Origin: Sinohyriopsis cumingii
Taxonomy: Eukaryota > Mollusca > Bivalvia > Unionida > Unionidae
Direction of reading: 5' to 3'
DNA length: 64,000 bases
Assembly: GCA_028554795.2 (NCBI GenBank)
Contig: CM068827.1
Span: 72,699,809-72,763,808 of the forward strand
Made by a program: the position numbers and the translations under genes. The notes below the pieces were generated by a model. It was not told where the DNA came from, searched no databases, and saw only the letters and a program-made list of their open reading frames with translations. Positions 2,377 to 22,921 of the stretch are shown here, one piece after another; position 1 is the stretch's first letter; every line of letters starts with the position of its first letter.

Positions 2377-2771
2377 AGTAGTGAAGGGGGATATTATAGC
2401 GTCAATGGGACTCATCATTAAAAATACCCTTGGGAACATATAGCGTCAAGGGAAATTTAACATGGAGAAAAATCGTGGGAACATATAGCGTCAAGGGAAA
2501 TTAACATGGAGAAAAATCGTGGGAACATATAGCGTCAAGGGAAATTAACATGGAGAAAAATCGTGGGACTGTTGAGCGTCAAGGGGATTTGAACATGGGA
2601 ATAGGGGACTGTATAGAGTCAAAGGAATTTAAACAGGGTGGGACTGTATAGCGTCAAGGGAAATGGAACATGGGATTTTTTTTTTAAAAAAAATATAAGA
2701 AAGGGGTAGGCAATTCAAAGGTTATCTCTTTTCGAGAAATATGGCTGGCCCTGAAAAGGGCCTTTGGGTTT
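2377..2771 (+). repeat. Left terminal inverted repeat
   Basis: 395 bp matching the inverse of 22567-22921 almost base for base, out to ...CCTTTGGGTTT where identity stops. It contains seven units of about 36-45 bp around TATAGCGTCAAGGGAAAT (near 2399, 2442, 2486, 2531, 2574, 2613, 2649) against six in the right repeat; the extra unit explains the 40-bp length difference. Next comes a T10A8 tract (~2677-2694) and then a conserved inner block that carries a histone-type hairpin on the minus strand (2747-2762). Confidence 0.95.
2747..2762 (-). terminator. Histone-type 3' stem-loop in left TIR
   Basis: Read on the minus strand: CCCAAA, then GGCCCTTTTCAGGGCC (6-bp stem, 4-nt TTTC loop), then AGCCA, then CTCGAAAAGAGATAACC about 10 bases on. 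This matches the architecture of replication-dependent histone mRNA 3' ends: stem-loop plus purine-rich downstream element. It lies 63 bases beyond the stop of the 2826-3164 gene. Function is inferred from the match. Confidence 0.7.
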
Positions 2772-2825
2772 TCTTCTTCTGCTTCTAATTTCTTCTTTTC
2801 CTCCACCAACTTCTTATTTTCTCAC

Positions 2826-3164
2826 CTACACTCTTTTTCTTCTTTTTTTCTCCTCCTCTTCTTTCTTCTCTTCCTCCTCTTCTTCTTTCTTCCTCTTCTC
2901 ATTTTCTTCTTCTTTTTCAATTTTTTCGTTCCATGTTCTTATTCTTATCTTTTCCTCTTCATCCTCCTTCTCCTCCTTTATTTCCTTCATCACACCACTA
3001 ATCTTGTCCTTTGCTTTTCTTAAATTGTTAATTTCCATCTTTACACGATGGGGACTATAGGAATAATGGTCTTCAACGAGTCTTATTAGCATCTGTTCCG
3101 TTATTCCTAAGTTGTCTAAAACGTCTTGTAAGGTTTGTATTTTGTCCATTTGGTTTGACGCCAT
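2826..3164 (-). CDS. Left-end charged coiled-coil protein A
   Basis: 112 residues from an ATG at 3164. The first ~60 residues are a helical region with regular hydrophobic spacing (LQDVLDNLGITEQMLIRLVE); the rest is almost pure Glu/Lys/Arg, so a long charged helix is likely. No enzyme motif is visible and I do not recognise the family. It is the outermost gene on the left and shares promoter layout and 3' hairpin with the next two genes, which look like diverged tandem duplicates. TATA-like CTATAAG is at 3214-3220, with two copies of the shared upstream element beyond it. The low-complexity C-terminus makes the coding call less certain, but the flanking signals support it. Confidence 0.65.
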   Translation of the reverse strand: MASNQMDKIQTLQDVLDNLGITEQMLIRLVEDHYSYSPHRVKMEINNLRKAKDKISGVMKEIKEEKEDEEEKIRIRTWNEKIEKEEENEKRKKEEEEEEKKEEEEKKRRKRV

Positions 3165-3213
3165 CTTCTTTTTATTCTTTGCAGAATGGTTTGAACAACT
3201 AACACTGTGGGTT

Positions 3214-3322
3214 CTTATAGTGAAAGCGCGAACGTGAAGGAAAACATCCCCCTAAAAAACATAAAATGGATCTTACCTAGATCATGACCCAACAACGCGC
3301 GGACGTGAAGGAAAACATCCCC
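3214..3322 (-). promoter_or_regulatory. Promoter of left-end gene A: TATA plus two upstream elements
   Basis: On the minus strand, CTATAAG (3214-3220) is preceded by two copies of a 26-27 base element. The first lies at 3226-3252 (GGGGGATGTTTTCCTTCACG then TTCGCGC) and the second at 3296-3322 (GGGGATGTTTTCCTTCACG then TCCGCGC). Between them lies a block with TCATGATCTAGGTAAGATC that is also found before gene B (4006-4024). I cannot match the element to a named factor. Confidence 0.6.
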
Positions 3323-3416
3323 ACTTTCTCATTTCATATAATAAAACCCTAACTATACTCTTCACATACGCTAAGAAACCCATAATCTACTATTCACACA
3401 AATATACCTTTACTCT

Positions 3417-3562
3417 TACAAACACAAACACACAAACACATACCCTCACATTTTTTAAGAAAGAGTTAGTGTTTATTTTCACACTACTCTACCTACACAC
3501 ATTGGCAAATTAATAGTTATTTCTTTTCTAGAGTATTGGGTAGCCCTGAAAAGGGCTGTTTT
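3417..3562 (-). repeat. Duplicated 3'-flank block, copy 1
   Basis: About 145 bp nearly identical to 4228-4369. It holds, in minus-strand order, the 3' hairpin, a GAAAAGAAATAAC purine element, a TTTGCCAAT motif and an AATAAA (3472-3477). It marks the end of a duplicated gene unit. Confidence 0.85.
3542..3557 (-). terminator. Histone-type 3' stem-loop after gene B
   Basis: Minus strand: AGCCCTTTTCAGGGCT, then ACCCA, then CTAGAAAAGAAATAAC. The stop codon of 3584-3892 is 26 bases before it. An AATAAA follows ~65 bases later (3472-3477), a back-up arrangement also seen in metazoan histone genes. Confidence 0.75.
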
Positions 3563-3583
3563 TTGAACTCCTGATGCACCTAT

Positions 3584-3892
3584 CTAATGGTTGCACCTTC
3601 CTGGCCTGGTGCCGCACACGCATCTTCTTCCCCAGTCTTCTTTCACCTTTCTTTTGGGGAGCGCAGAGGGAGGATGATTCGCTTCAACACCCCAATCCTC
3701 TGTCTCGGGAATATTGAACGACATCCTCTCTTCTCTTTTCTTTTCCTCTTCTTCCCTCTCTCTTCTCTCCTCCTCTTCCTTCTTTACTCTTGCTTCTTCT
3801 ACTATAGCCTCCGCTGATAGTTCGTTTACTATGCGCCTGGCATATTCCAGGTGCATCTGGAGTTCTAACAGTTTCACTATTCTGCTATTCAT
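3584..3892 (-). CDS. Left-end charged coiled-coil protein B
   Basis: 102 residues from the ATG at 3892 (the open frame continues upstream only to non-ATG codons). The N-terminal helix (IVKLLELQMHLEYARRIVNEL) runs into a Glu/Arg/Lys segment (EEEERREREEEEKKREER), then a short tail with CVCGTRPGRCNH. Layout and flanks match its neighbours A and C: TATA-like box at 3949-3955, shared upstream element at 3962-3989, histone-type hairpin at the 3' side. Function unknown; a regulatory or DNA-associated role would be a guess. Confidence 0.7.
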   Translation of the reverse strand: MNSRIVKLLELQMHLEYARRIVNELSAEAIVEEARVKKEEEERREREEEEKKREERMSFNIPETEDWGVEANHPPSALPKRKVKEDWGRRCVCGTRPGRCNH

Positions 3893-3948
3893 TCTTCTGG
3901 CTGTGTTAATCAATCAACAAGGGTAGCTGGACTGCCCAGCGAGTTTCA

Positions 3949-4060
3949 ATTTATACTGAAGGCGCGGACGTGATGGAAAACATCCCCCTCAAAACATAAA
4001 ATTCATCTTACCTAGATCATGACCAAAAAACAACAACGCGCGGACCTAAAAGAAACACTC
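3949..4060 (-). promoter_or_regulatory. Promoter of left-end gene B
   Basis: GTATAAAT (about 3949-3956, minus strand) lies ~57 bases before the ATG. One good copy of the shared element is at 3962-3989 (GGGGGATGTTTTCCATCACG, then TCCGCGCC) and a decayed copy at about 4036-4060. The TCATGATCTAGGTAAGAT block lies between them, as in front of gene A. Confidence 0.6.
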
Positions 4061-4227
4061 ACTCACTTTTTATGCTACCCATCACTATTTTAAAATTTTT
4101 TATAAATCACTTCAATAGACTATGCACATACGCAAAGCAATCCAATCTAACCCCAAATATACACCTCAAACAGCCCAAAAAACAAACATCATTTTAATCT
4201 ACTATTCACATCAACCTACTTTATCAC

Positions 4228-4369
4228 TTACAAACACAAACACATACCCTCACATTTTTTAAGAAAGAGTTAGTGTTTATTTTCACACTACTCTACCTAC
4301 ACACATTGGCAAATCGATCGTTATTTCTTTTCTAGAGTATTGGGTAGCCCTGAAAAGGGCTGTTTTTTT
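4228..4369 (-). repeat. Duplicated 3'-flank block, copy 2
   Basis: Near-identical to 3417-3562, including the hairpin and the AATAAA (4276-4281). With the matching promoters this shows that genes B and C arose by tandem duplication of a whole transcription unit. Confidence 0.85.
4347..4362 (-). terminator. Histone-type 3' stem-loop after gene C
   Basis: Minus strand: AGCCCTTTTCAGGGCT, then ACCCA, then CTAGAAAAGAAATAAC, identical in the core to the hairpin after gene B. The stop codon of 4392-4751 lies 29 bases upstream. Confidence 0.75.
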
Positions 4370-4391
4370 TGTTTTGCTATGGCATTCTTTT

Positions 4392-4751
4392 TTAGTTTCT
4401 AAGAATGCGATGTCCTCTGAGGATAGACTTTCTGGCGATAGGTCTGCTTCTTCGGAAAGAGAAGAAGAACTCTTTGGTGTCGATACGGCAATCGACAAAG
4501 CCTCTGTCAGCTTCAGGTTGCTGCTGTTGTTGCTGCTGTTGCTGCTGTTGCTGCTGTCTCTGAAGTCTGTACTTCTCTGTCCATTCTTCTTTCTCCCTGT
4601 TCATTTCTTCTCTGAAGAGCTCTTCTATCAGGTCTTCAATGATTTTTAACATTCTCACATTCTCTATTTCTTCTGGCTTTGGTATCAGACTGTGTCTGAC
4701 CCTATGCAAATTCACGTAGGCTTCGTTGAGCTTAGCTAGTTTGGAGCACAT
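4392..4751 (-). CDS. Left-end coiled-coil protein C with polyGln
   Basis: 119 residues from the ATG at 4751 (MCSKLAKLNEAYVNLHRVRH...). An N-terminal helical region containing IIEDLIEELFREEMNREKEE is followed by a run of about 14 Gln encoded by CAG/CAA, then a Ser/Arg-rich tail. Helical heptads and gene layout resemble A and B, although sequence identity is low. TTTAAG at 4804-4811 may stand in for TATA, and one shared promoter element is at 4817-4843. Function unknown. The Gln run may vary between copies. Confidence 0.7.
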   Translation of the reverse strand: MCSKLAKLNEAYVNLHRVRHSLIPKPEEIENVRMLKIIEDLIEELFREEMNREKEEWTEKYRLQRQQQQQQQQQQQQQPEADRGFVDCRIDTKEFFFSFRRSRPIARKSILRGHRILRN

Positions 4752-4803
4752 CTTCGTAGGAGGATGAGTCGACAATGGATGGTTAGACTGGGAACAAACC
4801 GGT

Positions 4804-4843
4804 TCTTAAAGTTAAAGCGCGGACGTGAAGGAAAACATCCCCC
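4804..4843 (-). promoter_or_regulatory. Promoter of left-end gene C
   Basis: TTTAAGAACC near 4804 is preceded on the minus strand by GGGGGATGTTTTCCTTCACG then TCCGCGC (4817-4843), the same element as before genes A and B. Confidence 0.6.
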
Positions 4844-5084
4844 ACACGGTTTTCGAGCCGCAACGTTTAGTGAGTGTCATGAGAGGGATAGTAAGAAATG
4901 AAAGAGCATCAATCCAACATTCTTATAGCTAAACAAACCACAAAGTAATTTTTTTTTCAAAACACAACATTTTTATTCAAAAATCACTTAACACTAAACA
5001 ACAACATTTTTAACAATAATATAACACTATAACATCAAACAATTTTTTTTTCAAATACCAAACATTTTTTTCTCAATGGACAAT
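4844..5084 (-). other. AT-rich intergenic with polyA signal
   Basis: Separates the left-end unit from the virion genes. On the minus strand an AATAAA (4972-4977) follows the protease stop by ~110 bases and probably ends the virion-gene transcript. Runs of A and T surround it. Confidence 0.5.
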
Positions 5085-5645
5085 CTACTTTAAACAGGGC
5101 TGACAACGTTGTGAATGAAATTGTGATTTCCACTGTTGGAAATCATTAGGCCATTGATGGACACTACGTTTCCTAGCTTGAGACAAAAGATAAGCATAAT
5201 GGTCACAAAACCATCGATCTACTTTCACATCGTTTCTAGCAGAAGAACGAGGATCGAAATGAGTCACTAAATGTTCTAAGGAATAGCCCAGGCTGCGATG
5301 ATGCAGAAAATACACACAGTACTGTCCACACACCAAGGAATCTGTGCCTTGTAATTTCACATTATTGAATCGGGTGGTTTGAGCATTTCTTCTCATAAAG
5401 CCGATGATATCGTCTTCCAAAGGGGGCAATCCGTACGAATCGAAATATTCCACACATCCTTCTTGAGGAAAGTAGACGGCTACCCAGTGGGTTCCTGGGA
5501 GATGACTGTCGTCCGTGTTGATTACGTAAGCTTGATGGTCTTTAGGTTTGCGATGAGGGAGTTCATCTTTAGCACAGACGACGGGATTCCAAGAAGCCGT
5601 ATACGAACTGTGGTTCAAAAGGTAATAAAGTTCCCAGGTATCCAT
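5085..5645 (-). CDS. Adenain-like cysteine protease
   Basis: 186 residues from an ATG at 5645. The papain-fold adenain/Ulp1-type catalytic set is visible in order: His53 in GTHWVAVY, Asp69 in YFDSYGLPP, Gln108 and Cys110 in CGQYCVYFL. Polinton and adenovirus proteases of this type cleave capsid and core precursors during virion maturation. Length is usual for the family (~180-210). It starts 18 bases after the stop of the C-x-x-C gene (5664-6149), so the two are probably cotranscribed. The frame is intact and all catalytic residues are present. Confidence 0.93.
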   Translation of the reverse strand: MDTWELYYLLNHSSYTASWNPVVCAKDELPHRKPKDHQAYVINTDDSHLPGTHWVAVYFPQEGCVEYFDSYGLPPLEDDIIGFMRRNAQTTRFNNVKLQGTDSLVCGQYCVYFLHHRSLGYSLEHLVTHFDPRSSARNDVKVDRWFCDHYAYLLSQARKRSVHQWPNDFQQWKSQFHSQRCQPCLK

Positions 5646-5663
5646 TGTTTTGTGTTTTCTTCT

Positions 5664-6149
5664 TCACAGGTAATAATAAGTCGTCAATTCGATCCTGACT
5701 TTTTGCTTGAAAATGTCTGACGAATAAACGGTTATTCGTTCTGTTTCCTCACTCTGATTCAGGAGAGCTTCGATACGATGGATCTCTTGAGTGGTTAATG
5801 GTGGACAAGAATGTTCACGCAAGTCTTTATACCACTGGTGCAACACGTCTTTGTTCGAGATGAGACTCCAAGCTTCGTCCAGATACTCGTCCAATTTTTC
5901 TTCTTGACTTAACATTAGGCATTTATCGTGTTGAATTTGACTGGGATGATCGTTTTGACATCCATAGCAATTTTTCTTGATCAATTCCGTCATTTTATCG
6001 ACCAAGTGTTTGGCCAAACAGGAGACTAAATGGGCTTCTTGTTCTGGCCATCTCGACTTCATTATGATCACTTCTTCTTCTTCCACAGTCTCCTCACATT
6101 TCATGTCCAAAGTTTCTCCACTAGGTAAAGAGGGATAACAGTCTTCCAT
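5664..6149 (-). CDS. Conserved Polinton C-x-x-C / DHPSQ protein
   Basis: 161 residues, ATG at 6149. The central motif KKNCYGCQNDHPSQIQHDKC combines CxxC, DHPSQ and HxxxC and could bind zinc. The rest is helical and acidic. A small protein with this C-x-x-C...PSQ...H...C signature is something I associate with invertebrate Polintons next to the capsid gene, but its role is unknown to me. It begins 5 bases after the capsid stop (6155). The end (ELTTYYYL) is close to the protease start. Confidence 0.8.
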   Translation of the reverse strand: MEDCYPSLPSGETLDMKCEETVEEEEVIIMKSRWPEQEAHLVSCLAKHLVDKMTELIKKNCYGCQNDHPSQIQHDKCLMLSQEEKLDEYLDEAWSLISNKDVLHQWYKDLREHSCPPLTTQEIHRIEALLNQSEETERITVYSSDIFKQKVRIELTTYYYL

Positions 6150-6154
6150 GACTT

Positions 6155-7475
6155 CTAGTAATCTAGAATGACTTCTCTCAAACTGTTGATTTCTATGGTA
6201 TTGTCAAATTCTGCATACAGGATGACGTTCACTGTGTGATCTGGAGGTGGATGTGCAAACTGAAGTTCCACACGAATCTGGCCTGATTTTATAGGGTGAA
6301 AATGTCCCTCGTCGCTGCCTTGGTCTGGAGTGAAATCGAAAGCCCACAAAGCGTAGCCTCCTGCATAATCGTCGTACGTAATACCGTGACTGGTGTTGGT
6401 TCCTAACTGTCCGGTAGCTTCGTACAGGGACAAGTACGACCTCAAATAATTCCCGTCACCAAAGTTAGGTTCTAAAGGCCGGGTACACAAGGTCTTGCCG
6501 TCGTGACTGACTTCAATCTTGGACACATTGTAATGATGAAAGTTGAAAGGATTTTCGTTGTAGGCTCCGTTGAAGGCTGAATTCTTGACGATACCAACAA
6601 TCAAACGTTTGGGTAACTGTCCTTGGAACAGATGATCTTGGATCATGGATCGATGTCCAGCAGGAATGGTGAACGTTTTCACTTCCACACGTCGGATCGG
6701 ATACTTGGTGGTCGTTCTGCTCAATGTTTGACTGATGTCGTTACCTACTTTAGGTAACACTTCCACACGACGCACGTAGAGTCTGGCTTCTAGGATTTTG
6801 GTTTTGTAAGTGGCATCATGAGCAGCCATCAAATGGAAAGCGGCACTGCTGCGATTCAGTCTCAAGCGGATATCCACCCCGTTCAGCAAATACTTTTCTT
6901 GCAACCACATGTCCAAATGCAAGCGATCCATCAGTTCTAAACTACGACTTAGTGCAATTTTCGCTCGTCGGTCTACAAATCCCTTTGAATGTGCAGCATC
7001 CGCAGCAAGTACAATAGCGTTGAACTTAGTTGCTGGGTCAGGTTTCCATACCACGCAAGCATCTAGATGAGTATTCTTGGCGTTTATTCCATACGTCAAG
7101 AGATTTTCCAGGTACGCTCGATAAGGGTAAGTATCCATGCTGCTGCTGACCAGTTTGTTATTCAAGTACAAGTCCACTTCGTTGAACAAGGAATGCATGA
7201 AATTGTTGACGGGAGCTACTGCATCAGTATTGTCTATGGCATCGTTGTTCGCTTCGGTTACTTTGACTTTCAAGTACAGGTAACTGCTATTTAGATCGAT
7301 GTAATCTTCGGGTTGTCCTTTGATTTCGAACTCGATGGGAGCAGAATCGGTCAAAGAGGAGATAGGAATAAATTCCACCCATTGGGATTCTTGCATCGTC
7401 ATCATGGTGGGGGGGGGGCATGGCAAACAGATCCAGTTCCGTCTTGGAACAAGCACAAGACTCTCGGTGCATCAT
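6155..7475 (-). CDS. Major capsid protein (double jelly-roll, F54H12.2-like), N-terminus frame-broken
   Basis: The long frame is open from 7456 to 6155; its first ATG is at 7405 (416 residues). The start (SQWVEFIPISSLTDSAPIEF, then EDYIDLNSSYLYLKVKV and VNNFMHSLFNEVDLYLNNKL) is the signature of the hexon-like capsid proteins of Polintons, known in databases as F54H12.2-like. The natural N-terminus (CSKTELDLFAMPPP) is in another frame, beginning with an ATG at 7475, 13 bases after the previous stop. The frames meet at a run of ten C (7409-7418, minus strand). This is either a real indel, an assembly error, or initiation moved to the ATGATG at 7400-7405 just after the run, which sits in a good ACC context. 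Confidence 0.92.
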
Positions 7476-7487
7476 TTTTTCTGTGTT

Positions 7488-7907
7488 TCAATAATCGAAA
7501 ACGTCTAAGTCTCGAACGGTTCTTCTTTTCTTGGCCTTTCTCGCTTGAAGTCTGGTGAAAGGGTGTTTTCTTCTTCGTCGTCTCTTTCTGCCTTGTCCTT
7601 GCTGAATGCTTGACTCGGTAGCGTGCAGGGCATTTATAGGTGTGTCTCGTCGGCCTAAAATGTCTTTGCCTGTTTGCAGCAAGACATTTTTGCCTGCCCT
7701 CATGAAGGCTTCTTTAGGGTTTTGTTTGTCGATGATGACATTTTGGAGAAATTCTTTGCCTTGCGTCAGTGCCGCATCTTTCAAGGCGTGCAATCCTCGT
7801 GTCACCATCGGTTTCAAGACTGGAGCCACCGAACGAAAGGCCGATTTTAACATGTCTCCTAAACCGTGTCCTCGCTGTCGAGCAACCCCTCGGTACACTG
7901 GATACAT
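7488..7907 (-). CDS. Basic virion core / minor capsid-type protein
   Basis: 139 residues, ATG at 7907. The N-terminus YRGVARQRGHGLGDMLKSAF followed by a proline-broken amphipathic helix region, and the very basic C-terminus (GRKRRRRRKHPFTRLQARKAKKRR), resemble the pX/core-type proteins next to the capsid gene in Polintons and adintoviruses. The RGHGLG stretch could be a protease processing site. It probably packages DNA or lines the capsid. It lies between the capsid and penton genes, with stops and starts 11-13 bases apart. Confidence 0.82.
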   Translation of the reverse strand: MYPVYRGVARQRGHGLGDMLKSAFRSVAPVLKPMVTRGLHALKDAALTQGKEFLQNVIIDKQNPKEAFMRAGKNVLLQTGKDILGRRDTPINALHATESSIQQGQGRKRRRRRKHPFTRLQARKAKKRRTVRDLDVFDY

Positions 7908-7918
7908 GACTTACTTAC

Positions 7919-8866: not shown

Positions 8867-9273
8867 AATTCCAGAGTTCTGTGGCTGTCCGAGGGGTTAG
8901 TGGATGTCAGAGGCGTGTCTCCGCCCAAAATGGGGTTCTGGTTGTGGTTGTTGGAGTGGTGACTGGCACTGGCACTGGACACAACGTTCCCGTTCGAGGA
9001 GAATTTCAGGGAGGGATTGGGAAGCAGGTAACCGATGCAACTGCTCAATAAAATGGTCCACAATTGTTTGTCTCCTTGTTGCAAACTCAAATTGGCAATG
9101 GCTGCCCCGATGACACAATACACCACGAAGATTTGGCAGAAAAAGACGATTTGCGTTTTAGGCACACGTTCTCCACACCACACCCACAAGGGTTGTTTTT
9201 GTAAATCTTGCACAGAAGAACTAGGGGAAGAAGGACTGGTCGACGTAGCTGCGTCTGATGTGTGAAAGGGCAT
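8863..9273 (-). CDS. Small two-helix membrane protein
   Basis: 136 residues from the ATG at 9273 (an upstream GTG at 9282 is less likely). Two hydrophobic segments stand out: IVFFCQIFVVYCVIGAAIANL and LWTILLSSCIGYLLPNPSL, preceded by WVWCGERVPK. Small proteins of this type (VPK, then helix, then LSSxxGYLLPxP) recur in Polintons between integrase and penton. A membrane or virion-membrane role is inferred. It overlaps the penton start by 3 bases and its own start lies just after the integrase stop. Confidence 0.78.
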   Translation of the reverse strand: MPFHTSDAATSTSPSSPSSSVQDLQKQPLWVWCGERVPKTQIVFFCQIFVVYCVIGAAIANLSLQQGDKQLWTILLSSCIGYLLPNPSLKFSSNGNVVSSASASHHSNNHNQNPILGGDTPLTSTNPSDSHRTLEL

Positions 9274-9278
9274 GATGG

Positions 9279-10391
9279 TCACTTCTTCTTTTTATAGTCG
9301 ATGACTTGCGAAGCGTCGATCCAAGAATCGAAACTGGGTGGATATCCTTTCCAACGTACTTTGACTTCTTTGACACGTCGTTTGCCCACTTTACGGTTTC
9401 TGCGTTCGAGAATGCTTTCGATGTCGTACACGTCGTCTTCTTTTTTGGTGACACGTTGTAACTCGGGCAAATAAAACGTTCCTTTGAGTACTTCTCCGTT
9501 CATGTCTTCCAATTTATAGACGGCAGGATGACGGCCATGTACTCGTCCAGTGACGCGAAACAATTCGGTCGTCCAGTTAGGTAAGTAACCTTTGTCGATA
9601 GTGCGTTTGGTTTTGCCAATGCGCACCCAATCTCCTATGGTCAACTCTCCACTTTTCTTGGGGACAGCCCTCGTCGGGGACGTACCGAACAGGCGCTCGA
9701 ACACCAGCACTTCGTTGTCGGGAGTCACGTCTTGCCGGGCACGTCCGATGCTGCGATGGTAAGATTGGTTGTACGCTTGCACCAGGTGCGGTAAGATGTC
9801 GATGTACTTCAGAGTGTGGTGATGCGTAAAATATTTCCACATGCGTTCTTTCAAAGTGCGTTGAAAACGTTCCACGATGCTGGCTTTGGTTTCGGGATTC
9901 TCGGTGGTAAAAAAATGAATGTCACGTTTCTTTAATTCTTTTTGGAAAGCTTGGTTCAGAAATTCGGTGCCTTTGTCCATTTGCCATCGAAGAGGGCGAC
10001 GACCGCTTTGTTTCAACACCCGTTGCAGGGCTCGCACTAACTCGCTGCTGGATTTGGAAGTCAAGGGCACGACCCAGGCAAATTTGGAAAAGACGTCGAT
10101 GACACAAAACAAATATTTGTAGCCACGATTGTAGCTGGCCAAATGAGAGACATCGGCTAAATCGGCTTGCCATTGATGATCGATGCCTTCCACTCGGGTG
10201 CGACTTCTGGCAAACTTGCGTCGAATGGGTTTGTGTAAAGTGTAGGTAGCTTGTTCTTGTAACCATCGTTGCACTTGAGGTAAACGGAGACTTTTCAGTC
10301 GCGTTTTGGCAGCACGATACAATTTTTGAACTCCTGCGTAACCTGCAGGATGGGAGGGATCGTAGTAAATGCTGGCTAAGACTTTTTCCAT
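9279..10391 (-). CDS. int: DD35E integrase with C-terminal chromodomain
   Basis: 370 residues from the ATG at 10391. The rve core has Asp77 (WQADLAD), Asp139 (WQMDKGTEF) and Glu174 (SIVERFQRTL), exactly 35 residues between the last two. The N-terminal IYYDPSHPAGYAGVQKLYRA is typical of Polinton integrases. Near the end, YDIESILERR through VRWKGYPPSFDSWIDAS is a chromodomain that may guide insertion to chromatin marks. The frame is open 108 bases upstream of the ATG. It overlaps, in another frame, the 3' half of the 9922-11031 frame. Its last codons (DYKKKK) are written over a CTATAAAAAG motif (9288-9297). Catalytic residues are intact. Confidence 0.95.
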   Translation of the reverse strand: MEKVLASIYYDPSHPAGYAGVQKLYRAAKTRLKSLRLPQVQRWLQEQATYTLHKPIRRKFARSRTRVEGIDHQWQADLADVSHLASYNRGYKYLFCVIDVFSKFAWVVPLTSKSSSELVRALQRVLKQSGRRPLRWQMDKGTEFLNQAFQKELKKRDIHFFTTENPETKASIVERFQRTLKERMWKYFTHHHTLKYIDILPHLVQAYNQSYHRSIGRARQDVTPDNEVLVFERLFGTSPTRAVPKKSGELTIGDWVRIGKTKRTIDKGYLPNWTTELFRVTGRVHGRHPAVYKLEDMNGEVLKGTFYLPELQRVTKKEDDVYDIESILERRNRKVGKRRVKEVKVRWKGYPPSFDSWIDASQVIDYKKKK

Positions 10392-11031: not shown

Positions 11032-11075
11032 GGGGTTGTCAGGGGTGAATTCTGAGATCTTGGGACTTCCGAAGG

Positions 11076-11540: not shown

Positions 11541-11552
11541 TTTTTTTTGGGA

Positions 11553-12787: not shown

Positions 12788-13521
12788 ATTTTTTGATGGG
12801 GAGTGAAATGAAGTCGAGGACGGAGACGTGTACAGGACAGGCCCTCCGTCTTGGCACCAGTGGTGAAACAAGTGGGTACGAAATCGCAAATCCTCGGGGG
12901 TCGTAGGTTTCAAATCGACGAGTAAATAGGCGTGTGGCGTTTGAGTGGCATCGTCGTACGCGTTCCTAACTGTTTGGCTAAGACTTGCACTTGCGATTTA
13001 TCTCGAGGGCTTTTAAACAAGACCACGTAATGCGCATTGAGACTGATGGTGCGATGGGCTTTACTTTGTTGAAACAAATTTTGGGTGATGTAAACGACAC
13101 TGGCATTACGGTGATGCCCTTTACGCGTGAACCACAATTTAATTTCTTCTTCGTCTTCTCCTAACATGTCGTCGAAAATGACCAAATGGGTTTGACGGGA
13201 GTCAGAGACGATGCCGTCGTCTTCTTTAGGAATGCCTTCCACAAACACGATGGAATCGCCTTGACTTTCTCGCAAGAGGCTGTACGCCGATTGCCACTCT
13301 TTGTAACACCACACGATCCGTTGAGGGGGCCGATCGATCAAATGATGTTTATGTTCAATCAAACGTTTGACGAATTCGGTTTTGCCTGAACCGCTAGGTC
13401 CAGCAATGAGCATGTTAAAGGGATGGCGAAGATACAAAGCCTCCCAACTGGCACGATCTAAGTGTTCGTCGATGACTTTGACAGTAGAGGAAGAGGGAGC
13501 AGAGACAGTAGAGGTAGCCAT
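12782..13521 (-). CDS. A32/FtsK-type packaging ATPase, C-terminus frame-shifted
   Basis: The ATG at 13521 fits the TATA box at 13563-13572; the frame's upstream extension uses no ATG. Walker A GPSGSGKT (residues 41-48), Walker B LVIFDD (113-118) and VVYITQN as the sensor-like strand are all present. Polinton ATPases of this kind pump DNA into the capsid. The frame stops at 12910 after an alien tail (GTRTTMPLKRHTPIYSSI). From about 12,970 the expected C-terminal sense continues in another frame down to a TAA at 12782-12784. Total length (~245 codons) is then usual for the family, so one base is probably lost or gained near 12,970. Confidence 0.92.
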
Positions 13522-14794: not shown

Positions 14795-14806
14795 GAATAG
14801 GTTATA

Positions 14807-15262: not shown

Positions 15263-15290
15263 GAACAGATTATTATGGTAAGAAGTTACT

Positions 15291-16028
15291 TCAATGTCTC
15301 GGTCCCACTAAAGGTAAGTAATGACAATTCGGTGACCATCGAGCATGTTCAACGTAGGCCGAATCTTGCGGTTCCCAGTGGTGAAGTGACACACTGCAAC
15401 TGAAGCACTTGACTTTATCTCCTTCGCCCAAGTAGAAAAATCCGGCTCTGGCTAATTCTTCGGGGGTCGGTCCTCCCAGATACTTTGGCCATTTTCCTTT
15501 GAACGATTGAAGACGATTTTCAAAGTCGCAGTATTCCGACAAACGCACAGGGAACGAATATTCGTTTTTCACAGGTTCGTTTCGATGAGGGTTGGGTGAC
15601 ATGAACAGGAGTTTGCTCAGGGCTGGATGACATCCGTAGGGAGGTAAACGTGAAGGTCGACATTCCCCTTTAAACCCGGTAAAATGTCTAAGAGGACGAG
15701 CGGCATCGCTTTCGCATCCCTCAGGTTTGACACGCACAGCATCACTTTCCATGATAGGGGCAGTGAGAACAAAGTTCCCATGATGCTTTACGGCATCGCT
15801 CAGGTCACAAGGTACAGCATCGTACACATCGCAAGGCTCACAATCGCACTCGTCTGCAAACTCCGTTACGCAATTACAATGGTAACCACATGGACAATCG
15901 CAGTTTCCTTCCGGACATTTTCCGTCGCAATGCCTGGGTCTTATCCATCCAGTATTAGTCACACTAGAGGAAGATACAACTTTTTTACAATCCCCAAACT
16001 GGAACGATGTCTCTTTCAAAGTATTCAT
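15291..16028 (-). CDS. BIR-domain (IAP-like) protein with Cys-rich N-terminus
   Basis: 245 residues from the ATG at 16028 (the open frame begins at a GTG three codons upstream). The N-terminal third is a Cys cluster (CDGKCPEGNCDCPCGYHCNC, then CDCEPCDVYDAVPCD). The C-terminus is one BIR: RLQSF...WP, ELARAGFFYLGEGDKVKCFSC, then EHARWSPNCHYL, giving the CxxC...H...C zinc site. BIR proteins block caspases or bind their adapters. No RING is visible after the BIR. The TATA box GTATAAAAAGG is at 16083-16093. The upstream neighbour is a second BIR gene. BIR genes are known accessory genes of some animal DNA viruses. Confidence 0.88.
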   Translation of the reverse strand: MNTLKETSFQFGDCKKVVSSSSVTNTGWIRPRHCDGKCPEGNCDCPCGYHCNCVTEFADECDCEPCDVYDAVPCDLSDAVKHHGNFVLTAPIMESDAVRVKPEGCESDAARPLRHFTGFKGECRPSRLPPYGCHPALSKLLFMSPNPHRNEPVKNEYSFPVRLSEYCDFENRLQSFKGKWPKYLGGPTPEELARAGFFYLGEGDKVKCFSCSVSLHHWEPQDSAYVEHARWSPNCHYLPLVGPRH

Positions 16029-16082
16029 CTTGTTCACTCGGTCTTGGTAGTCACAATGAACTATCGATCTTGACCATAGCCC

Positions 16083-16093
16083 CCTTTTTATAC
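16083..16093 (-). promoter_or_regulatory. TATA box containing upstream stop codon
   Basis: GTATAAAAAGG on the minus strand; the TAA (16088-16090) ends the 16088-16546 gene. The next ATG is at 16028. Confidence 0.7.
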
Positions 16094-16546
16094 TAGTCGC
16101 AATGCAGTCTCCAGCTTGTACATCTTTCCTTTTTTACGTTTTTTATGTCTTGTTTCGGAAGGTACCGTCTCTAAGGTACCGTCAACATTGTACCGTAGTG
16201 TGATGGGTGGAAAGGCCATAGAAAGGTAAGGGCAGTGCGGAGACCATCGAGTATGTTCCAGAATAGCTGAATCTTTATAGATACATAGATCCATTCGTAA
16301 CTTCAGTCCGCAAGCGAAACACTGTACCTCGTATCCCAATCCTGACTCAGGTCCCAAGTAGACAAATCCTGTTCTAGCTAAAACATGCGAAGAAGGTAAT
16401 CCTTCCCTATCCGTAGGCCATTTCTGAAACGTGTCCAATCGACGGGCACAATCACAATAGTCAGGTAAGAAGACTGGAAAATGGTAGGGTTTGAACTTGG
16501 AGCTCTTTTCGGGTTTCTCACTCGATTCTTGCTGTGGCGAAGTCAT
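16088..16546 (-). CDS. BIR-domain (IAP-like) protein, short form
   Basis: 152 residues, ATG at 16546. One BIR fills residues ~28-108: DYCDCARRLDTFQKWP, HVLARTGFVYLGPES, VQCFACGLKLRMD, LEHTRWSPHCPYL, with all four zinc ligands. A basic tail (RHKKRKKGKMYK) follows, with no RING. It resembles the neighbouring BIR protein most in the zinc core, consistent with duplication and divergence. The TATA motif (GGTATAAAAC, 16581-16590) is written over the last codons of the polymerase gene. Confidence 0.88.
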   Translation of the reverse strand: MTSPQQESSEKPEKSSKFKPYHFPVFLPDYCDCARRLDTFQKWPTDREGLPSSHVLARTGFVYLGPESGLGYEVQCFACGLKLRMDLCIYKDSAILEHTRWSPHCPYLSMAFPPITLRYNVDGTLETVPSETRHKKRKKGKMYKLETALRLV

Positions 16547-16569
16547 CTTTCTTGTGGGTGGCTATCCTC

Positions 16570-18117
16570 TTACAACCAATGTTTTATACCAACGTGTCCA
16601 TACGGTAAGGTGAAATGATTGGGAAGTCGAACTCGTTTCTGGTACACGATTTGATAGACTTTTTCCAGGGGTCGACTGACGATGTGATGAGTGGGTAAAC
16701 GTACAATCTTGTTCGGTTGGTGAGTGGTCACTTTAAAGTTTCCATCCTCTCCCGATTGCAAGGCTTCTTTCAATACCCCAAAGTTGACCACTCGACTGGT
16801 ACGATAATTCAGAGTCAGTCCTTTCACTTTGCACGTCGTGTGCACTTCTCCTTGTTTGTCCCGGTATTCGTAGCCGTAATTTTTGGGACCGCCACTGACG
16901 AAACTTAGAATCTTGTCGTCGGGATGCTCGTCTGTCCAGGCTCCTAAACGGTCTCCTTCGATGTTAGGGTGATGTTGAATCGGGTGATGGATGTAAATGC
17001 AACTGTCCGTGTCAAAGTACAGGACGCGTTCTTCTAACAGTTCTAAAGCTTCGTACAATTTTAAGCGAGCATGGGCTGTCACGTAAGCCGCAATGATGAC
17101 ATTTCCAAAAGGGTCGTCTTGTACAAAGTCCAGATCTTCTTCGTAATTGACCAAGATCAAATTCTCTCGAACGACGTCCACGTGTTTCATGTATTTGGTT
17201 TTGTCGTGAATCATCTGGAAGTAGCGGGAAGGTTCTGTCAAATATTCCGTCTTGGGTAAACACGGTCGTTGTGCCATTTTACCCCACAAGCAATTTAACA
17301 TCACTTTGGCAAACGATCGCCTGCCTTCGTTTTTCTCGATGTGGTCTAAAGTGATGCCTTCTTGTTCGTAGTATTTCTCTTTGAATTGTATTTGGTCTTC
17401 GGGAGTGTGACACCAGGAAGGATAGCCGCTGGCTTCTTGCTTCAGTTTCAAAAAGGCATCCACGTAGTCTGCGAAAATGCCTTTCTGCGTGGGGTCACCC
17501 TTGCGGTATTGTTGTGTCTTGGGAAAGTGACAAATTTCGTACACTTCTAACAGTTGGTATCCCATGTCCAGAGCTTTGAACAATTCCACGCTGACCCAGG
17601 TTCCCGTCAAGGCACGTTCTTCCTGGCTGTGATGGCAAGGTTGGTCTTGGTTGCACGTTTCGGCACAAGTACGGCACAAGGGAAACATCAGTTTGCCTTG
17701 ACAATGGTGAGGTAAGACGGGATGGTATAGGTTCGTGGGAGGCAAAACTTTACACTTGATCAAGCCTTCGTATTGTCGAATGTTTTTCAGGTCGATGTGT
17801 TCCGTCAGCAATTGTGGGTGCCCTACAGGAAAGCGACAATATTTGCACACGTAGGGATACAGCGAACACACGTCCAAGTATTTGATTTCTTCTCCTATCT
17901 CTTCGTCGGCTTGGTACAGCAAACAGGTGGCATTGGTCCTTCCTCCGTACAAACTATCCCTCGGGTTCAGCGGGTCCATGAACTGGTAACTTTCCACGAG
18001 GCGTTTAAACTCGGGATCGGTTTTCATACGGTAATCGTACTCGTGTTCCCACATTTCCACCACTTGGTATCCTTGCTGTTCTAACTTTAGGCATCGCTGA
18101 CAAGTGTCCTGGTACAA
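16570..18117 (-). pseudogene. polB: Protein-primed PolB, C-terminal (palm) piece
   Basis: The frame is open for 515 codons. It holds the polymerase palm: motif A DVCSLYP (residues 82-88), motif B with KVMLNCLWGK, motif C YFDTDSCIYI, and a downstream FVSGGPKNYGYEY then CKVKGLTLN typical of Polinton PolB. It continues the gene begun at 20609 but is one frame off from the 18087-20201 piece, with a 31-base overlap. No independent promoter is visible before it, so it is the 3' part of a broken gene rather than a second gene. The palm acidic residues are intact. Confidence 0.92.
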
Positions 18118-20201
18118 GTCTTCATGGTTCGTTGCAAAAACTGATTTTTAGTGTCACGGTCAGGGTAACAGACGGGACATCCGTGAAATAAGCAACCGTT
18201 AAACTCGTACACGATCTTGGGGTTTTCTAAGTCCCAGCCATCGACCGAATACGTTCCGATGGTCTTTTCGCCCCCTCCGTTGCGGGCATGCTGAATCCAC
18301 TTGTCTTCCTTGTCGCACAAGTAATGTAACCAGCGCAGGGCTTTGACCGAGTATTGACGTTTGACAAAGTGGGTCGTTTGAGGGCTGATGACAGCCACGG
18401 TGTTTTCAGGCATGAATCGTTGTCGATACACTAAGGAACACGCTTTGGCAATGGTGCAAGCTTCTTTCAAAGGATCGACCCCTCCGTGTTCCATGAACAG
18501 TTCTCGAAATTTTCCACAGCAACGTCGTAAAATGTCCACGTCGGAACGACAATACTTTAACATTTCTTCCTGAAAGTCGAAAGGGTCCGAGGCGTGAATC
18601 TGGTACCAAGCGTAGAAAGCTTCTCGTTGTTCGGTACGCATGTTGTCGGGGTCGTAATAGTGAGCCTCAGGTAAATGGGGTAGAACGGCATGTTGATTGG
18701 CTTCCGTATTGAAAAAGTGTGGAAAGTACCCTTTAGCCATTTCTGTCATTCCAAACGTTTTAGGCATTCGACTCAAAGGCATGGCCAAGTAACTCATCGA
18801 ATCTTTAAACTGTACTTGTCCCACTTGCATGAAAATGATTTTGGCTCCGTTCAAAGTCACTTTAGGACGCTCGGTGCCTTGTTCCGTATAGTACCTCAAA
18901 AGAAACTGTCCATCGTATCCGGAGAAATTGTGAGCCATCACCGTGGCATGACGATGACAATCTCCGTAACGTTCGATGTCCTCTTGGCTCCACGTCTTGT
19001 CGACGGGGTCTAAGACCCATTGGGCAAAATCGGCTAGCGTGTTCTGTCCCCGAAAGATTTTTTCACGCCCTCCGGGAATCTTGCTGCAGTGAGGGCAATG
19101 ACTGAAGATAGGTTCTTGAATGCACTTCTCGCACGCTCGATGAGCCACGCAGAAATTAGGAATGTGAATGCCGGTTTCTTGCATGCATTCGAAATCGAAA
19201 AAGATGAAATTGCCTTTCTTCTTGTGACCGTCCTCTTTCTCTGGTGGGGGTTGGTATTTTTGCACGTAACATTGGTGTTCCAAGTCCACGATGTGGTGAC
19301 AAATGTGACATTTTTTCTTTCCTGAACATACGTGTGCCTTGGTATTATTGGTACGTATGACTTGTTCACACGTAGAGCACAATCTCAGCAGTTGACAAGC
19401 GCATTTCTTCTGTGAACCTTGCGTTTTCAGATGTTGTTGGTAACAGGTAGGGCTGACAAACGTGCGCAGACAAGTTGAACAAGGCACTGGTTCTTCGCTC
19501 AGACAGGGTGAAGAGGCCAAACATCCTGAGCATTTCGATCCACAATGCTTGTGTTGCTCTCGATTATTATAACCATGGTCACATTTCTCACAGTAATAAC
19601 CGTATCCCAGGAATCCGGTGATACTGGTAATGGTATCGAAATGGTCATCGTGATGATAAACGTGAATGTATTTTCCGTCCTTAAAATCTTGCCCTCGAAA
19701 CAACATAGGCCCTCGCACTTCTTGAGGGTGCACTTTCAAGGTGTATCGTGGAGCTAGGGCATCTTGCAATTTTTGCATCTCAGGAATGCCACAGGGTGTG
19801 TCTTTGGACAGGCCAGCTTGTTGCAACAGGAGTTCTGCTTCGTTTCGTTGTTTGGCTCGGTCGGATTGTTGAATAGTTTTCCAGGTTCTTTTCCATTCTA
19901 CCGTGTCGTTCTTGTTGGCATAGGTTCGTCCCACCACGATGGTACGGGCTAAACACATCTGGTCATGAGGATTGTGAATTTGGACAAGGCTACGCTTAAT
20001 GCTGCGAAGGTCGTTCACCAATAACATCTTTTTGCGTCCGGTCCCTTGAGGAGGAGAGACGTGGGTCATGTCCAATGTGGCTTTTCCATCGGTGATGTCA
20101 AACTGGTCATTAGATTGTTGCACGTGTTGAATCTTGTCCATGACTTTGGAAGCGGTCAATTCTGCAGGGGTGCTAAACTCGATCCAAACAGGGGATTTCA
20201 A
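18087..20201 (-). pseudogene. polB: Protein-primed PolB, exonuclease piece
   Basis: An open stretch of ~700 codons between an in-frame TAA (20211-20213) and a frame change near 18,100. Contents in order: several CxxC zinc-finger-like pairs (~204-311), Exo I FFDFEC (~334-339), Exo II AHNFSGYD (~423-430), Exo III YCRSDVD (~550-556), then FNGCLFHGCPVCY near the end. This is the proofreading domain and the start of the polymerase domain of a family B enzyme. Its first codon in the open frame is not ATG, which supports it being an internal part of one gene spanning 16570-20609. Confidence 0.92.
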
Positions 20202-20210
20202 ACCGTCGTG

Positions 20211-20609
20211 TTATATGGAAAGTCTCAAGCGATCGCCTTCTTTGGGTTGACATTGTTGCTTGAGTGAAGTGAGCAAAGAATCCCACACCCCAGTGATAAA
20301 CACTTCTGCTTTCTCTAACGGCACTTCAGCCTTGAAATCTTTAAACTTCACTGTGTATTTGTAAGCCGTAGTTCTAAATTTTCTAGAGGAGCGCTTTTCC
20401 GTCTCTCGAATGGAATAGTATTTTTCAGGGTTGACTAAGGGTGGTGAACTTGGTTTAGAGGGTTCTGATTCTGGTTCACTCATGTCCTCTTCAAAATCAC
20501 TGGCATGAATTTGTGCCAAGATTTCAGCCCTGGTACGAGGCGATAGATCACGTTTCTGCCTCTTACTTTCTTCTTCTTCTTTCTTCTCGAATGAATTAGA
20601 TCGTTTCAT
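20211..20609 (-). pseudogene. polB: Protein-primed PolB, N-terminal piece
   Basis: 132 codons from a proper ATG at 20609, 48 bases after a TATA box. A basic, nuclear-signal-like start (KRSNSFEKKEEEESKRQKRD) is followed by an acidic linker and YKYTVKFKDFKAEVPLEKAE. It stops at TAA 20211-20213, but sense continues in the same frame directly after it, into the exonuclease piece. The TAA is therefore a premature stop within the polymerase gene. With the frame change near 18,100 the polymerase carries two lesions. Confidence 0.8.
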
Positions 20610-20656
20610 CTTGAAAGCAAAAAGTCAAATGTCTCAAGTTCAAACACCATGAGCTA

Positions 20657-20689
20657 CTTTATAGTCATAGCAGACCAGCGTATATAAAA
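20657..20689. promoter_or_regulatory. Divergent core promoter: two opposed TATA boxes
   Basis: CTATAAAG on the minus strand (20657-20664) faces the polymerase ATG at 20609. TATATAAAAG on the plus strand (20681-20690) faces the zinc-knuckle ATG at 20744. The two boxes are only ~16 bases apart, so both genes share one short control region. Confidence 0.7.
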
Positions 20690-20743
20690 GGGTGTGTGTC
20701 TTGTCCTTTCACTATTCATTTCACTCTCAAGCCGAGCACAACG

Positions 20744-21216
20744 ATGGAAGAGACTACCCAGATGGAACGTTTCGTCAGAGCTTTGCGAGGGGTCATTAGA
20801 AAATTCTCTTCAGACCAGCCTACGGACTACTCTCCTTCCTTTCGAGATAAAAGTCAAGATACTTGCTATATCTGTCAGAAGAAAGGGCATTGGTCTTCAG
20901 AGTGTCCAGACCGTGAAAAAAGAACAAAAACAGGGACTAAAAAGACAAAAGTCAAGATACCTGTTATTATTGTAAAGAAAAAGGACATTGGTCTCCAGAT
21001 TGCCCAAAAAAGAAACAAGAGGAGTCAGAAGAAAAGAGGGATTCTTCAGAAGAAGAGAGGGATTCTTCGGAAGAAAAGAGGGATTCTTCAGAAGAAGAAG
21101 AGGAAGAAAAAAGACAATTCTATTTACAAGAGGCAAAGAAACAGGAGAAGAAGAAAAGAAGAAGGGAAGAAAATGAGGAAAAGACGGTGAAGAAATTTAA
21201 AAAACAGAGAGACTAA
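20744..21216 (+). CDS. Zinc-knuckle (CCHC) protein, frame-broken
   Basis: The ATG at 20744 follows a strong TATA box; an earlier in-frame ATG at 20696 would precede the expected cap site. The first frame gives a helical start (MEETTQMERFVRALRGVIRK) and one zinc knuckle CYICQKKGHWSSEC. A duplicated ~60-bp segment then encodes a second knuckle (CYYCKEKGHWSPDC), but in another frame, followed by RDSSEE repeats, a charged helix and a stop at 21214-21216. The first frame runs on to 21190 as Lys/Arg-rich sequence. A frame change between the knuckles (~20,900-20,950, in A runs) is likely. CCHC knuckles bind single-stranded nucleic acid. AATAAA is at 21306-21311. Confidence 0.75.
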
Positions 21217-21305
21217 AGAAGGAGAAAGAAGAAGAAGTCAATGAACTTTTAATTAAAGTGTTGTGCTGTGAATTGTGAATTGGATTGTAAAAAAATGGAG
21301 AAAAG

Positions 21306-21311
21306 AATAAA
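21306..21311 (+). terminator. PolyA signal AATAAA
   Basis: AGAATAAATG, 90 bases after the zinc-knuckle gene stop. This gene uses an ordinary polyA signal, unlike the neighbouring right-end genes. Confidence 0.6.
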
Positions 21312-21475
21312 TGAATGATATAAGGTAAGAGTCTTTGAGTTTTGATTTTAAAATAAGAACGTACACTCACGCACTCATACACAGACACGTACTATAAAGG
21401 TAAAATGGGTGGGTTTTTTTATTTTTTTGAGTTATTGGCAAATTGAAATTGTATTTCTTTTCGAGAAATGTGGGT

Positions 21476-21491
21476 GGCCCTGAAAAGGGCC
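21476..21491 (-). terminator. Histone-type 3' stem-loop after right-end minus gene
   Basis: Minus strand: AAAAA, then GGCCCTTTTCAGGGCC, then ACCCACA, then CTCGAAAAGAAATAC. It is the closest of the five to the histone arrangement, including the ACCCA flank. The stop codon of 21520-22098 is 28 bases upstream. An AATAAA (21418-21423) follows further on. Confidence 0.8.
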
Positions 21492-21519
21492 TTTTTCTCT
21501 TTATGGTGTAGGGGTGAGT

Positions 21520-22098
21520 TTAAGCAATCAACTTTAACTGCCTTATGCCTTTGCCACGGCCAAGGCCTACTTCTGAACTGCGTAATGTTGATGATGATTG
21601 GGTTGAAATCACTAAGTGTGGTACGGTAGGCTTAGTCACAGGGTTGACGTGTTTAGCTCGGGAAGGTCGTATTCTCTTCGGTCGTGATAAAGAAGTCTGA
21701 TACATTTGTTTCAGACTTCTTAACTCCGCTAAAATGTCCAACAGTACCGTGACCGTTTGATTTTCACCCTCTTGTTTCTTTGCTGCTACTACTTCTTCTT
21801 GCTGTTGCTGCTGTTGTTTTTTTCTTACCTCTTCTTCTTGCTGATGTTGCTGTAGGAGAAAAACTTGTTCCGCTTCCTTTTGTCGTTGTATAAATTTCTC
21901 CAATTCTTCTTTCTGTCTCTGTCTAAAATTCTCCACTTGCGGTAATGAAGAAGGTAACGAAGGTTCCGGAACAAATTCTTGCGAGGAGAGAAAATCCACA
22001 AAATCCCAATTCACCTCTTCTGAAAGTAAGTCCGAGTTCCCTTGGGCGGTCTCCGCTGCTGGTGCACCCCATTGGATCGTTTTCTGAGTTTCCGTCAT
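21520..22098 (-). CDS. Right-end Gln-rich coiled-coil protein
   Basis: 192 residues, ATG at 22098. An acidic N-terminus (SEEVNWDFVDFLSSQEFVPE) could be an activation-type segment. It is followed by a long Gln/Glu/Lys coiled coil (FRQRQKEELEKFIQRQKEAE ... QQHQQEEEVRKKQQQQQQEE), a second helix (VLLDILAELRSLKQMY) and a basic Ser/Thr tail ending GLGRGKGIRQLKLIA. A bZIP-like or DNA-binding regulator would fit acidic-coil-basic order, but no bZIP consensus is present. It ends with a histone-type hairpin and is divergent from the 22318-22554 gene across a CRE-containing region. Confidence 0.75.
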   Translation of the reverse strand: MTETQKTIQWGAPAAETAQGNSDLLSEEVNWDFVDFLSSQEFVPEPSLPSSLPQVENFRQRQKEELEKFIQRQKEAEQVFLLQQHQQEEEVRKKQQQQQQEEVVAAKKQEGENQTVTVLLDILAELRSLKQMYQTSLSRPKRIRPSRAKHVNPVTKPTVPHLVISTQSSSTLRSSEVGLGRGKGIRQLKLIA

Positions 22099-22317
22099 GT
22101 TGAATCACTGTCGCATAGATTGACTGCACACAAGCGCTAGCAGATCTATATTGACTACGTGACGTCACAGACTGCTCTCTTCGGATTGGATGAGGGCTGA
22201 CTGAATTTTGTAACGCGTGTTCGGATTGGTGAATGAACTCAATCCGTTTCAATCCTTCCTGTACCTATAAATAAGCGCCGTTCAATGCATTGATTCACCT
22301 GTTCTCGTCGCTTCAAG
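22099..22317. promoter_or_regulatory. Divergent control region with CRE and CCAAT boxes
   Basis: Lies between the two right-end genes. It has a perfect CRE palindrome TGACGTCA (22160-22167), two TTCGGATTGG repeats (22180-22189 and 22220-22229; CCAAT boxes on the minus strand), CTATAAATA (22265-22273) for the plus gene and ATATAGATC on the minus side. CCAAT and CRE sites are known cell-cycle and histone-gene promoter elements; the link is inference. Confidence 0.6.
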
Positions 22318-22554
22318 ATGTGGACCACAGTTGAGTCATCCACCCTTGTGTCTTCCATGATGTTTCGGACAGACTTGCTCATGTATGTCCGATCCAAGTG
22401 GACCGTTGTCCACAGGACAAACACCAGCCTGTGGATACGTAGGATCTACGTTGAAAGACAAGGATGCCTGAAAAGAGTGCTGGTTTACGGGCCAACAGTG
22501 AGACGCAGCCTAAGGACAAGAAGAAGACCAATACGGTGCCCTTTATGTTTATGA
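22318..22554 (+). CDS. Right-end small basic protein
   Basis: 78 residues, ATG at 22318, about 45 bases after a TATA box. Rich in Arg, Val, Ser and Thr (SKWTVVHRTNTSLWIRRIYV, RRSLRTRRRPIRCPLCL), with a terminal CPLC. No family recognised. It is the only outward-facing gene at the right end, and its stop lies 21 bases before the hairpin inside the right terminal repeat. This mirrors gene A at the left end. The promoter and 3' signal are the main support for it being real. Confidence 0.62.
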   Translation: MWTTVESSTLVSSMMFRTDLLMYVRSKWTVVHRTNTSLWIRRIYVERQGCLKRVLVYGPTVRRSLRTRRRPIRCPLCL

Positions 22555-22566
22555 ATACATTAACAT

Positions 22567-22921
22567 AAACCCAAAGGCCCTTTTCAGGGCCAGCCATATT
22601 TCTCGAAAAGAGATAGCCTTTGAATTGCCTACCCCTTTCTTATATTTTTTTTTTAAAAAAAATCCCATGTTCCATTTCCCTTGACGCTATACAATCCCAC
22701 CCTGTTTAAATTCCTTTGACGCTATACAGTCCCACGATTTTTCTCCATGTTAATTTCCCTTGACGCTATATGTTCCCACGATTTTTCTCCATGTTAATTT
22801 CCCTTGACGCTATATGTTCCCACGATTTTTCTCCATGTTAAATTTCCCTTGACGCTATATGTTCCCAAGGGTATTTTTAATGATAAGTCCCATTGACGCT
22901 ATAATATTCCCCTTCACTACT
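22567..22921 (-). repeat. Right terminal inverted repeat
   Basis: 355 bp, inverse of 2377-2771. It has six ~40-bp TATAGCGTCAAGGGAAAT units (on the minus strand) instead of seven. Apart from the missing unit and small changes in the T/A tract the two repeats are almost identical, which suggests recent insertion or ongoing gene conversion. Confidence 0.95.
22576..22591 (+). terminator. Histone-type 3' stem-loop in right TIR
   Basis: Plus strand: CCCAAA, GGCCCTTTTCAGGGCC, AGCCA, then CTCGAAAAGAGATAGCC. It is 21 bases after the stop of the 22318-22554 gene. Confidence 0.72.

Follow-up and report, generated by a model that had tools for sequence, protein, structure and literature searches.

Can a virus-like mobile element place its own genes under the control that governs its host's histone genes? 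The question is raised by a 64,000-nt stretch of the Sinohyriopsis cumingii genome (Mollusca, Bivalvia; GenBank GCA_028554795.2, contig CM068827.1, forward-strand positions 72,699,809 to 72,763,808), hereafter the window, in which a Polinton/Maverick element of 20.5 kb occupies positions 2377..22921, recognised by its terminal inverted repeats (TIRs), its target-site duplication (TSD) and, in Pfam searches, its type B DNA polymerase (PolB), its integrase with rve core and chromodomain, and its A32-type ATPase. Inside this Polinton lie five histone-type hairpins, each 3′ of the stop codon of a small gene and on the coding strand. Signals of this type recruit SLBP and the U7 snRNP, with cleavage a few bases past the hairpin and an mRNA tied to DNA replication, and such 3′ ends are, to our knowledge, usually regarded as a property of replication-dependent histone genes. 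We consider it likely, on the signals described below, that the small terminal genes of a Polinton lineage have come under histone-gene control, that is, that they are transcribed and processed at their 3′ ends as replication-dependent histone genes are.

Histone-type hairpins follow five small genes

The five genes are:

2826..3164, minus strand: gA_left, 112 aa, Glu/Lys-rich, no Pfam match above cut-off
3584..3892, minus strand: gB1, 102 aa
4392..4751, minus strand: gB2, 119 aa, with a Gln run
21520..22098, minus strand: gC, 192 aa
22318..22554, plus strand: gA_right, 78 aa, small and Arg-rich, with a conserved C-terminal Cys

Their hairpins, with the purine-rich histone downstream element (HDE) that follows each, are:

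2747..2762, minus strand: GGCCCTTTTCAGGGCC, 63 nt past the gA_left stop; HDE GAAAAGA at 2727-2733; RF00032 score 35.2 bits
3542..3557, minus strand: AGCCCTTTTCAGGGCT, 26 nt past the gB1 stop; HDE at 3522-3528; AATAAA further 3′
4346..4361, minus strand: AGCCCTTTTCAGGGCT, 30 nt past the gB2 stop; HDE at 4326-4332; AATAAA further 3′
21476..21491, minus strand: GGCCCTTTTCAGGGCC, 28 nt past the gC stop; HDE at 21456-21462; RF00032 score 41.2 bits; AATAAA further 3′
22576..22591, plus strand: GGCCCTTTTCAGGGCC, 21 nt past the gA_right stop; HDE at 22605-22611; RF00032 score 35.6 bits

A sequence-only reading of the window had announced these five hairpins, and all are present, although the one it placed at 4347-4362 lies one base away, at 4346-4361. 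The hairpins stand 21-63 nt past their stop codons (19-63 had been proposed), always on the strand of the gene, and the GAAAAGA that the same reading had seen 9-15 bases after each hairpin follows at exactly 13 nt in all five. Three hairpins read GGCCCTTTTCAGGGCC and two AGCCCTTTTCAGGGCT, with a closing pair that differs on both sides and is thus compensatory. Three pass the gathering score of the Rfam family RF00032 (Histone3; cut-off 34), while the two AGCCC..GGGCT hairpins, with their A-U closing pair, score under it. The outer hairpins (2747 and 22576) represent a single site copied in both TIRs, and the 3542 and 4346 hairpins sit in a 135-bp duplication with 98% identity, so the window holds about three independent sites. 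Relaxed to a loose pattern, the motif is found five times in the window versus four times in total over 200 Markov-1 shuffles. The PolB, integrase, probable capsid and ATPase genes of the element carry none of these histone-type signals.

The element's 3′ signals match the histone genes of its host

In the 2.9-Gb host genome, a search with Pfam Histone revealed a histone repeat arranged in tandem, one unit measuring ~8.3 kb, and the H2B, H3 and H2A genes used for comparison come from stretches of this array on contig C14. Host H2B ends in the hairpin GGCCCTTTTCAGGGCC, a 13-nt spacer and GAAAAGA, identical to the element's. Host H3 has a hairpin with a TTTT loop, GGCCCTTTTTAGGGCC, followed by the same 13-nt spacer and GAAAAGA, and H2A comes close, with the hairpin GGCCCTTTTAAGGGCC and GAAAAGG after 14 nt; beyond the H2A HDE stands CAATTTTGCCA, similar to the CAATTTGCCA found about as far out in the element. 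Compared in this way, the element's 3′ signals match those of its host's histone genes, beyond the general consensus. The sequence-only reading had taken the arrangement for the layout of replication-dependent histone 3′ ends and had pointed to the host histone genes as the comparison to make; the matching hairpin, spacer and HDE bear that reading out.

A promoter module is shared with host H2B

Absent from that earlier account is a histone promoter element common to the Polinton and its host. The H2B promoter of the host (371 nt upstream examined) contains the 23-nt module GATGTTTTCCATCACGTCCGCGC without a mismatch, and an inverted copy with four mismatches lies upstream of host H2A. The window has four such sites, each preceding a hairpin gene:

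3226..3248, minus strand: proximal module before gA_left, two mismatches; adjoins CTATAAG
3297..3319, minus strand: distal module before gA_left, one mismatch
3962..3984, minus strand: GATGTTTTCCATCACGTCCGCGC before gB1, with no difference from the copy in the host H2B promoter
4817..4839, minus strand: module before gB2, one mismatch

In 100 shuffled windows, no site came within five mismatches of the module. Between the element and the host H2B promoter the 23-nt core matches and the flanks differ; what the two have in common is therefore a shared promoter element and not an inserted piece. Among the copies of the element that we fetched from the host genome, 80 distinct contexts carry the module with at most four mismatches, and in 74 it is followed within 200 nt by an open reading frame (ORF) of at least 50 aa. 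A hairpin lies no more than 130 nt past the stop in 57 of these 74 ORFs, a count in which some bias remains, many loci having been chosen by their hairpin. The 23-mer is a concrete candidate for an H2A/H2B promoter element of the host animal, and it faces opposite ways with respect to H2A and H2B.

The signals are conserved across thousands of copies

Exact matches to the hairpin (with an R..Y closing pair) number 56,197 in the host genome and exact matches to the promoter module 30,227; backwards controls gave none for either. Together with the shuffles, these controls rule out a chance origin of hairpins and modules. Positions were analysed for the first 100 of the 56,197 hairpin places, which all lie near the beginning of contig C1. 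They include 19 (-,+) pairs 1.07-1.10 kb apart, the arrangement of gC and gA_right, and no (+,-) pair within 1.3 kb, and 99 of them have another hairpin within 22 kb. At about five hairpins per element, we estimate the copy number of the lineage to be on the order of ten thousand, not all of which need be complete. From 75 scored RF00032 matches in the genome (a search in which one of 14 control genomes also matched, below the cut-off), 50 loci were fetched, and each of them can be aligned with the interior of the element over 815 nt or more, so their hairpins belong to it.

Since some loci had been selected by the very feature under study, bias-free counts were made in which the hairpins that chose a locus were omitted and each context was counted once (44, 2 and 12 anchor rows removed). 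All six Watson-Crick pairs are kept in 14/15 TIR-type, 22/28 gB-type and 13/19 gC-type hairpins, 49/62 in total. Column conservation is 0.94, 0.98 and 0.975 within the hairpin for the three types versus 0.77, 0.76 and 0.90 in the 26 columns upstream. In other copies, counted in the same manner, a hairpin lies within 130 nt past the stop of gB1 in 19/22 distinct ORFs, gB2 in 2/2, gC in 12/17 and gA_right in 11/11, and of a control gene in 0/4. With hairpin-chosen loci included, the counts are 17/19 for gA_left, 20/23 for gB1, 3/3 for gB2, 18/23 for gC and 33/33 for gA_right.

Two features of the copies stand apart from the signals. On contig C16 (30.19-30.81 Mb), TIR matches recur seven times on one strand and with one and the same score, roughly 80-160 kb apart, which suggests a segmental duplication array carrying Polintons. 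Among 33 right ends, the window included, identity is 77-90% across gA_right and the TIR edge (22300-22659) and 89-97% across gC and the sequence around it (21500-22299); by this pattern of identity the right end is a mosaic, its ends being older or recombined.

The hairpin genes are selected and encode no histones

No histone domain was found in the five hairpin-gene proteins at E≤0.01 (Pfam). Among copies, the median ratio of nonsynonymous to synonymous substitution (dN/dS) is 0.10 for gA_left at a median dS of 0.94, 0.20 for gB1 at 0.85, 0.12 for gA_right at 1.0 and 0.43 for gC at 0.09; pairs with a dS of 0.05 or less do not enter these medians, which are approximate for short genes whose dS approaches 1. 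By these ratios, the hairpin genes are under purifying selection. Public protein sets hold 20 homologues of gC, one of them 94% identical and 19/20 at 57-69%. A homologue of gA_right, P0141 (133 aa, 82% identical), continues ..KPFSGP.., which is compatible with the hairpin letters but degenerate, and as support for the hairpin from other sources is thin.

Proposed mechanism and alternatives

From signals that match those of host histone genes, stand after selected ORFs and are conserved among copies, we infer how these genes would be processed, the absence of poly(A), the timing and the benefit. The left three genes would be transcribed from promoters that carry the host H2A/H2B module, and all five would end in a stem-loop and a purine-rich HDE at the host H2B/H3 spacing. 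Host SLBP and U7 snRNP would recognise the pre-mRNAs and cut them after the hairpin, and the products would be non-polyadenylated mRNAs accumulating mainly in S phase. Where AATAAA follows the hairpin, as it does in three genes, a polyadenylated form could be made when the histone pathway is off, and such a form may thus exist outside S phase. The element would benefit by expressing these genes when its host makes nucleotides and replication factors available. With somewhat less assurance than we hold for histone-gene control as such, we lean towards a wider reading of the same signals, an 'honorary histone' regulon in which non-histone genes with an H2A/H2B promoter element and histone 3′ signals have their expression locked to S phase in some ten thousand copies of the element.

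Several results weigh against histone-gene control. A U7 candidate, L078, was not accepted (RF00066 29.3 bits, cut-off 34; genome E 0.27); its 5′ end pairs poorly with the HDE, and the RF00066 search matched below the cut-off in 6/14 control genomes. An exon-wise search for SLBP gave none at E≤0.001 among 14 candidates, and the control genomes gave no match either. AATAAA lies 52-64 nt past the hairpin in gB1, gB2 and gC. The 371 nt upstream of host H3 hold no module within seven mismatches, and gC and gA_right have no promoter module. The 45 columns 3′ of the hairpin are nearly as conserved as the hairpin itself (0.88-0.99), so that the hairpin is not distinct on that side, the high value being due in part to the rows having been anchored there. 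For gA_left the bias-free count is 0/2, its 17 hairpin-bearing ORFs all being in loci chosen by hairpin or TIR; because the bias-free counts are lower and gA_left has none in its favour, our confidence is slightly reduced. Finally, three related Polinton fragments, L010-L012 (35-43% identity in the major capsid protein, MCP), have no histone hairpin, as far as these partial elements extend.

An unlikely alternative, slightly strengthened by the bias-free counts, is that the signals are relics: the element would once have taken up a promoter and a 3′ end from a host histone gene and spread them, and they would now be functionless, with ordinary poly(A) ends doing the work. The AATAAA downstream of three hairpins fits this, the H2B match is close enough for a capture, and 13/62 bias-free hairpins have lost a pair, which decaying copies predict under either view. 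However, 49/62 keep all six pairs while the upstream flanks and the synonymous sites (three genes, median dS 0.85-1.0) diverge, and between the element and the H2B promoter the 23-nt core is alike but its flanks are not, which also tells against a captured piece.

Two further readings seem to us very improbable, to about the same degree. The hairpins could act in the DNA itself as sites of replication, packaging or recombination, for example as TIR cruciforms, and two of the five do sit at the inner TIR edge; yet the other three are internal and all five lie on the coding strand just past stops, for which reason we rejected a TIR-only or cruciform function as the main role, and a cruciform would need neither host-histone letters nor a 13-nt spacer nor GAAAAGA. 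Abundant hairpin transcripts could instead titrate SLBP or U7 as a sponge, disturbing the histone supply in favour of element DNA; the 56,197 exact hairpins are ~85 times the 662 histone candidates of a first look (662 being a lower bound), but one element holds just five, and the hairpins follow conserved ORFs of low dN/dS and so serve mRNAs first. Histone-gene control of the terminal genes remains the reading that we prefer.

Relation to known systems

Like replication-dependent histone genes (RF00032, SLBP/U7), the element's terminal genes have a 6-bp stem, a 4-nt loop, an ACCCA-type flank and an HDE at the host spacing, together with the H2A/H2B promoter module (in the left genes) and short single-exon ORFs; unlike them, their ORFs have no histone domain, their setting is mobile and virus-like, and AATAAA follows three of them. 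A hairpin and a poly(A) signal are reported to occur together in the H1 orphon genes of Mytilus galloprovincialis; these genes, unlike the element's, encode histones. A passage of PMC6210712 mentions H1 orphon genes of mussels with poly(A) signals, a likeness to three of the element's genes, and stem-loops in histone mRNAs of the clam Lucina pectinata.

With known Polintons/Mavericks (adintovirus-like), the element has in common a 6-bp TSD, TIRs, PolB, an rve integrase, an ATPase, and candidate protease-like and capsid-like genes, whereas small terminal genes with histone-type 3′ ends and promoter modules set it apart. No report linking the histone stem-loop to Polintons or transposable elements was found among the titles listed for the openly licensed literature. 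A viral contig set held no related loci by capsid protein and no exact hairpin plus ACCCA or promoter pattern. A hairpin on the IMG/VR contig L009 was dismissed as a chance match, since that contig carries bacterial or phage-type ORFs. The hairpin feature may belong to one Polinton lineage. Of the fragments noted above, L010 and L011 end within ~1.5 kb of the capsid and protease genes. The capsid genes of L010-L012 sit in records filed as bacterial metagenome-assembled genomes (endosymbiont of Escarpia laminata; Breoghania sp.), which most likely reflects animal contamination.

If histone-gene control of these genes is true, it would give a DNA virus or transposon a new means of sensing the cell cycle of its host. 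Such transcripts would be under-represented in poly(A)-selected RNA-seq, so that Polintons that look silent may be expressed.

Architecture and other genes of the element

The assignment to the Polintons is based on the 6-bp TSD, the long TIRs, the type B DNA polymerase, the rve integrase and the packaging ATPase. The TSD is GATGTA (2371-2376 and 22922-22927), and the termini read AGTAGTGAAG../..CTTCACTACT. The remaining features are:

2377..2771: left TIR, 395 bp, with tandem repeats and a hairpin at its inner edge
5085..5645, minus strand: candidate protease of the adenovirus C5 type (PF00770 E 0.0068, under the Pfam cut-off)
6155..7405, minus strand: probable major capsid protein, with 528 homologues and without a match in Pfam
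9279..10391, minus strand: integrase, rve core plus chromodomain (Pfam rve 5.8e-14)
12910..13521, minus strand: packaging ATPase of Pox_A32/FtsK type (Pox_A32 3.5e-8, above cut-off)
16570..20141, minus strand: PolB gene, here two ORFs (18087-20141 and 16570-18054)
22567..22921: right TIR, 355 bp

Matched TIR arms are 96-97% identical (97% for 2605-2771/22567-22733). The TIRs are largely filled by tandem repeats at 35-45-bp spacing with the core TAGCGTCAAGGGAAAT (2388-2673 and 22665-22903). Both PolB ORFs match DNA_pol_B_2 (E 7.8e-16 and 6.2e-26; Pfam), and protein priming is predicted. The name major capsid protein is one that we presume from Polinton gene order; an organism is named for 14 of the best 120 listed among its 528 homologues in public protein sets, and 13 of the 14 are bivalve proteins called F54H12.2-like, which points to a bivalve host. 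The protease candidate is the last gene in a long left-directed array and has AATAAA and no hairpin. Two neighbouring BIR-domain proteins (IAP-like, inhibitor-of-apoptosis) are encoded inside the Polinton at 15291-16546, and a CCHC zinc-knuckle gene with Lys-rich repeats (20744-21190, plus strand) is convergent with gC and has its own AATAAA.

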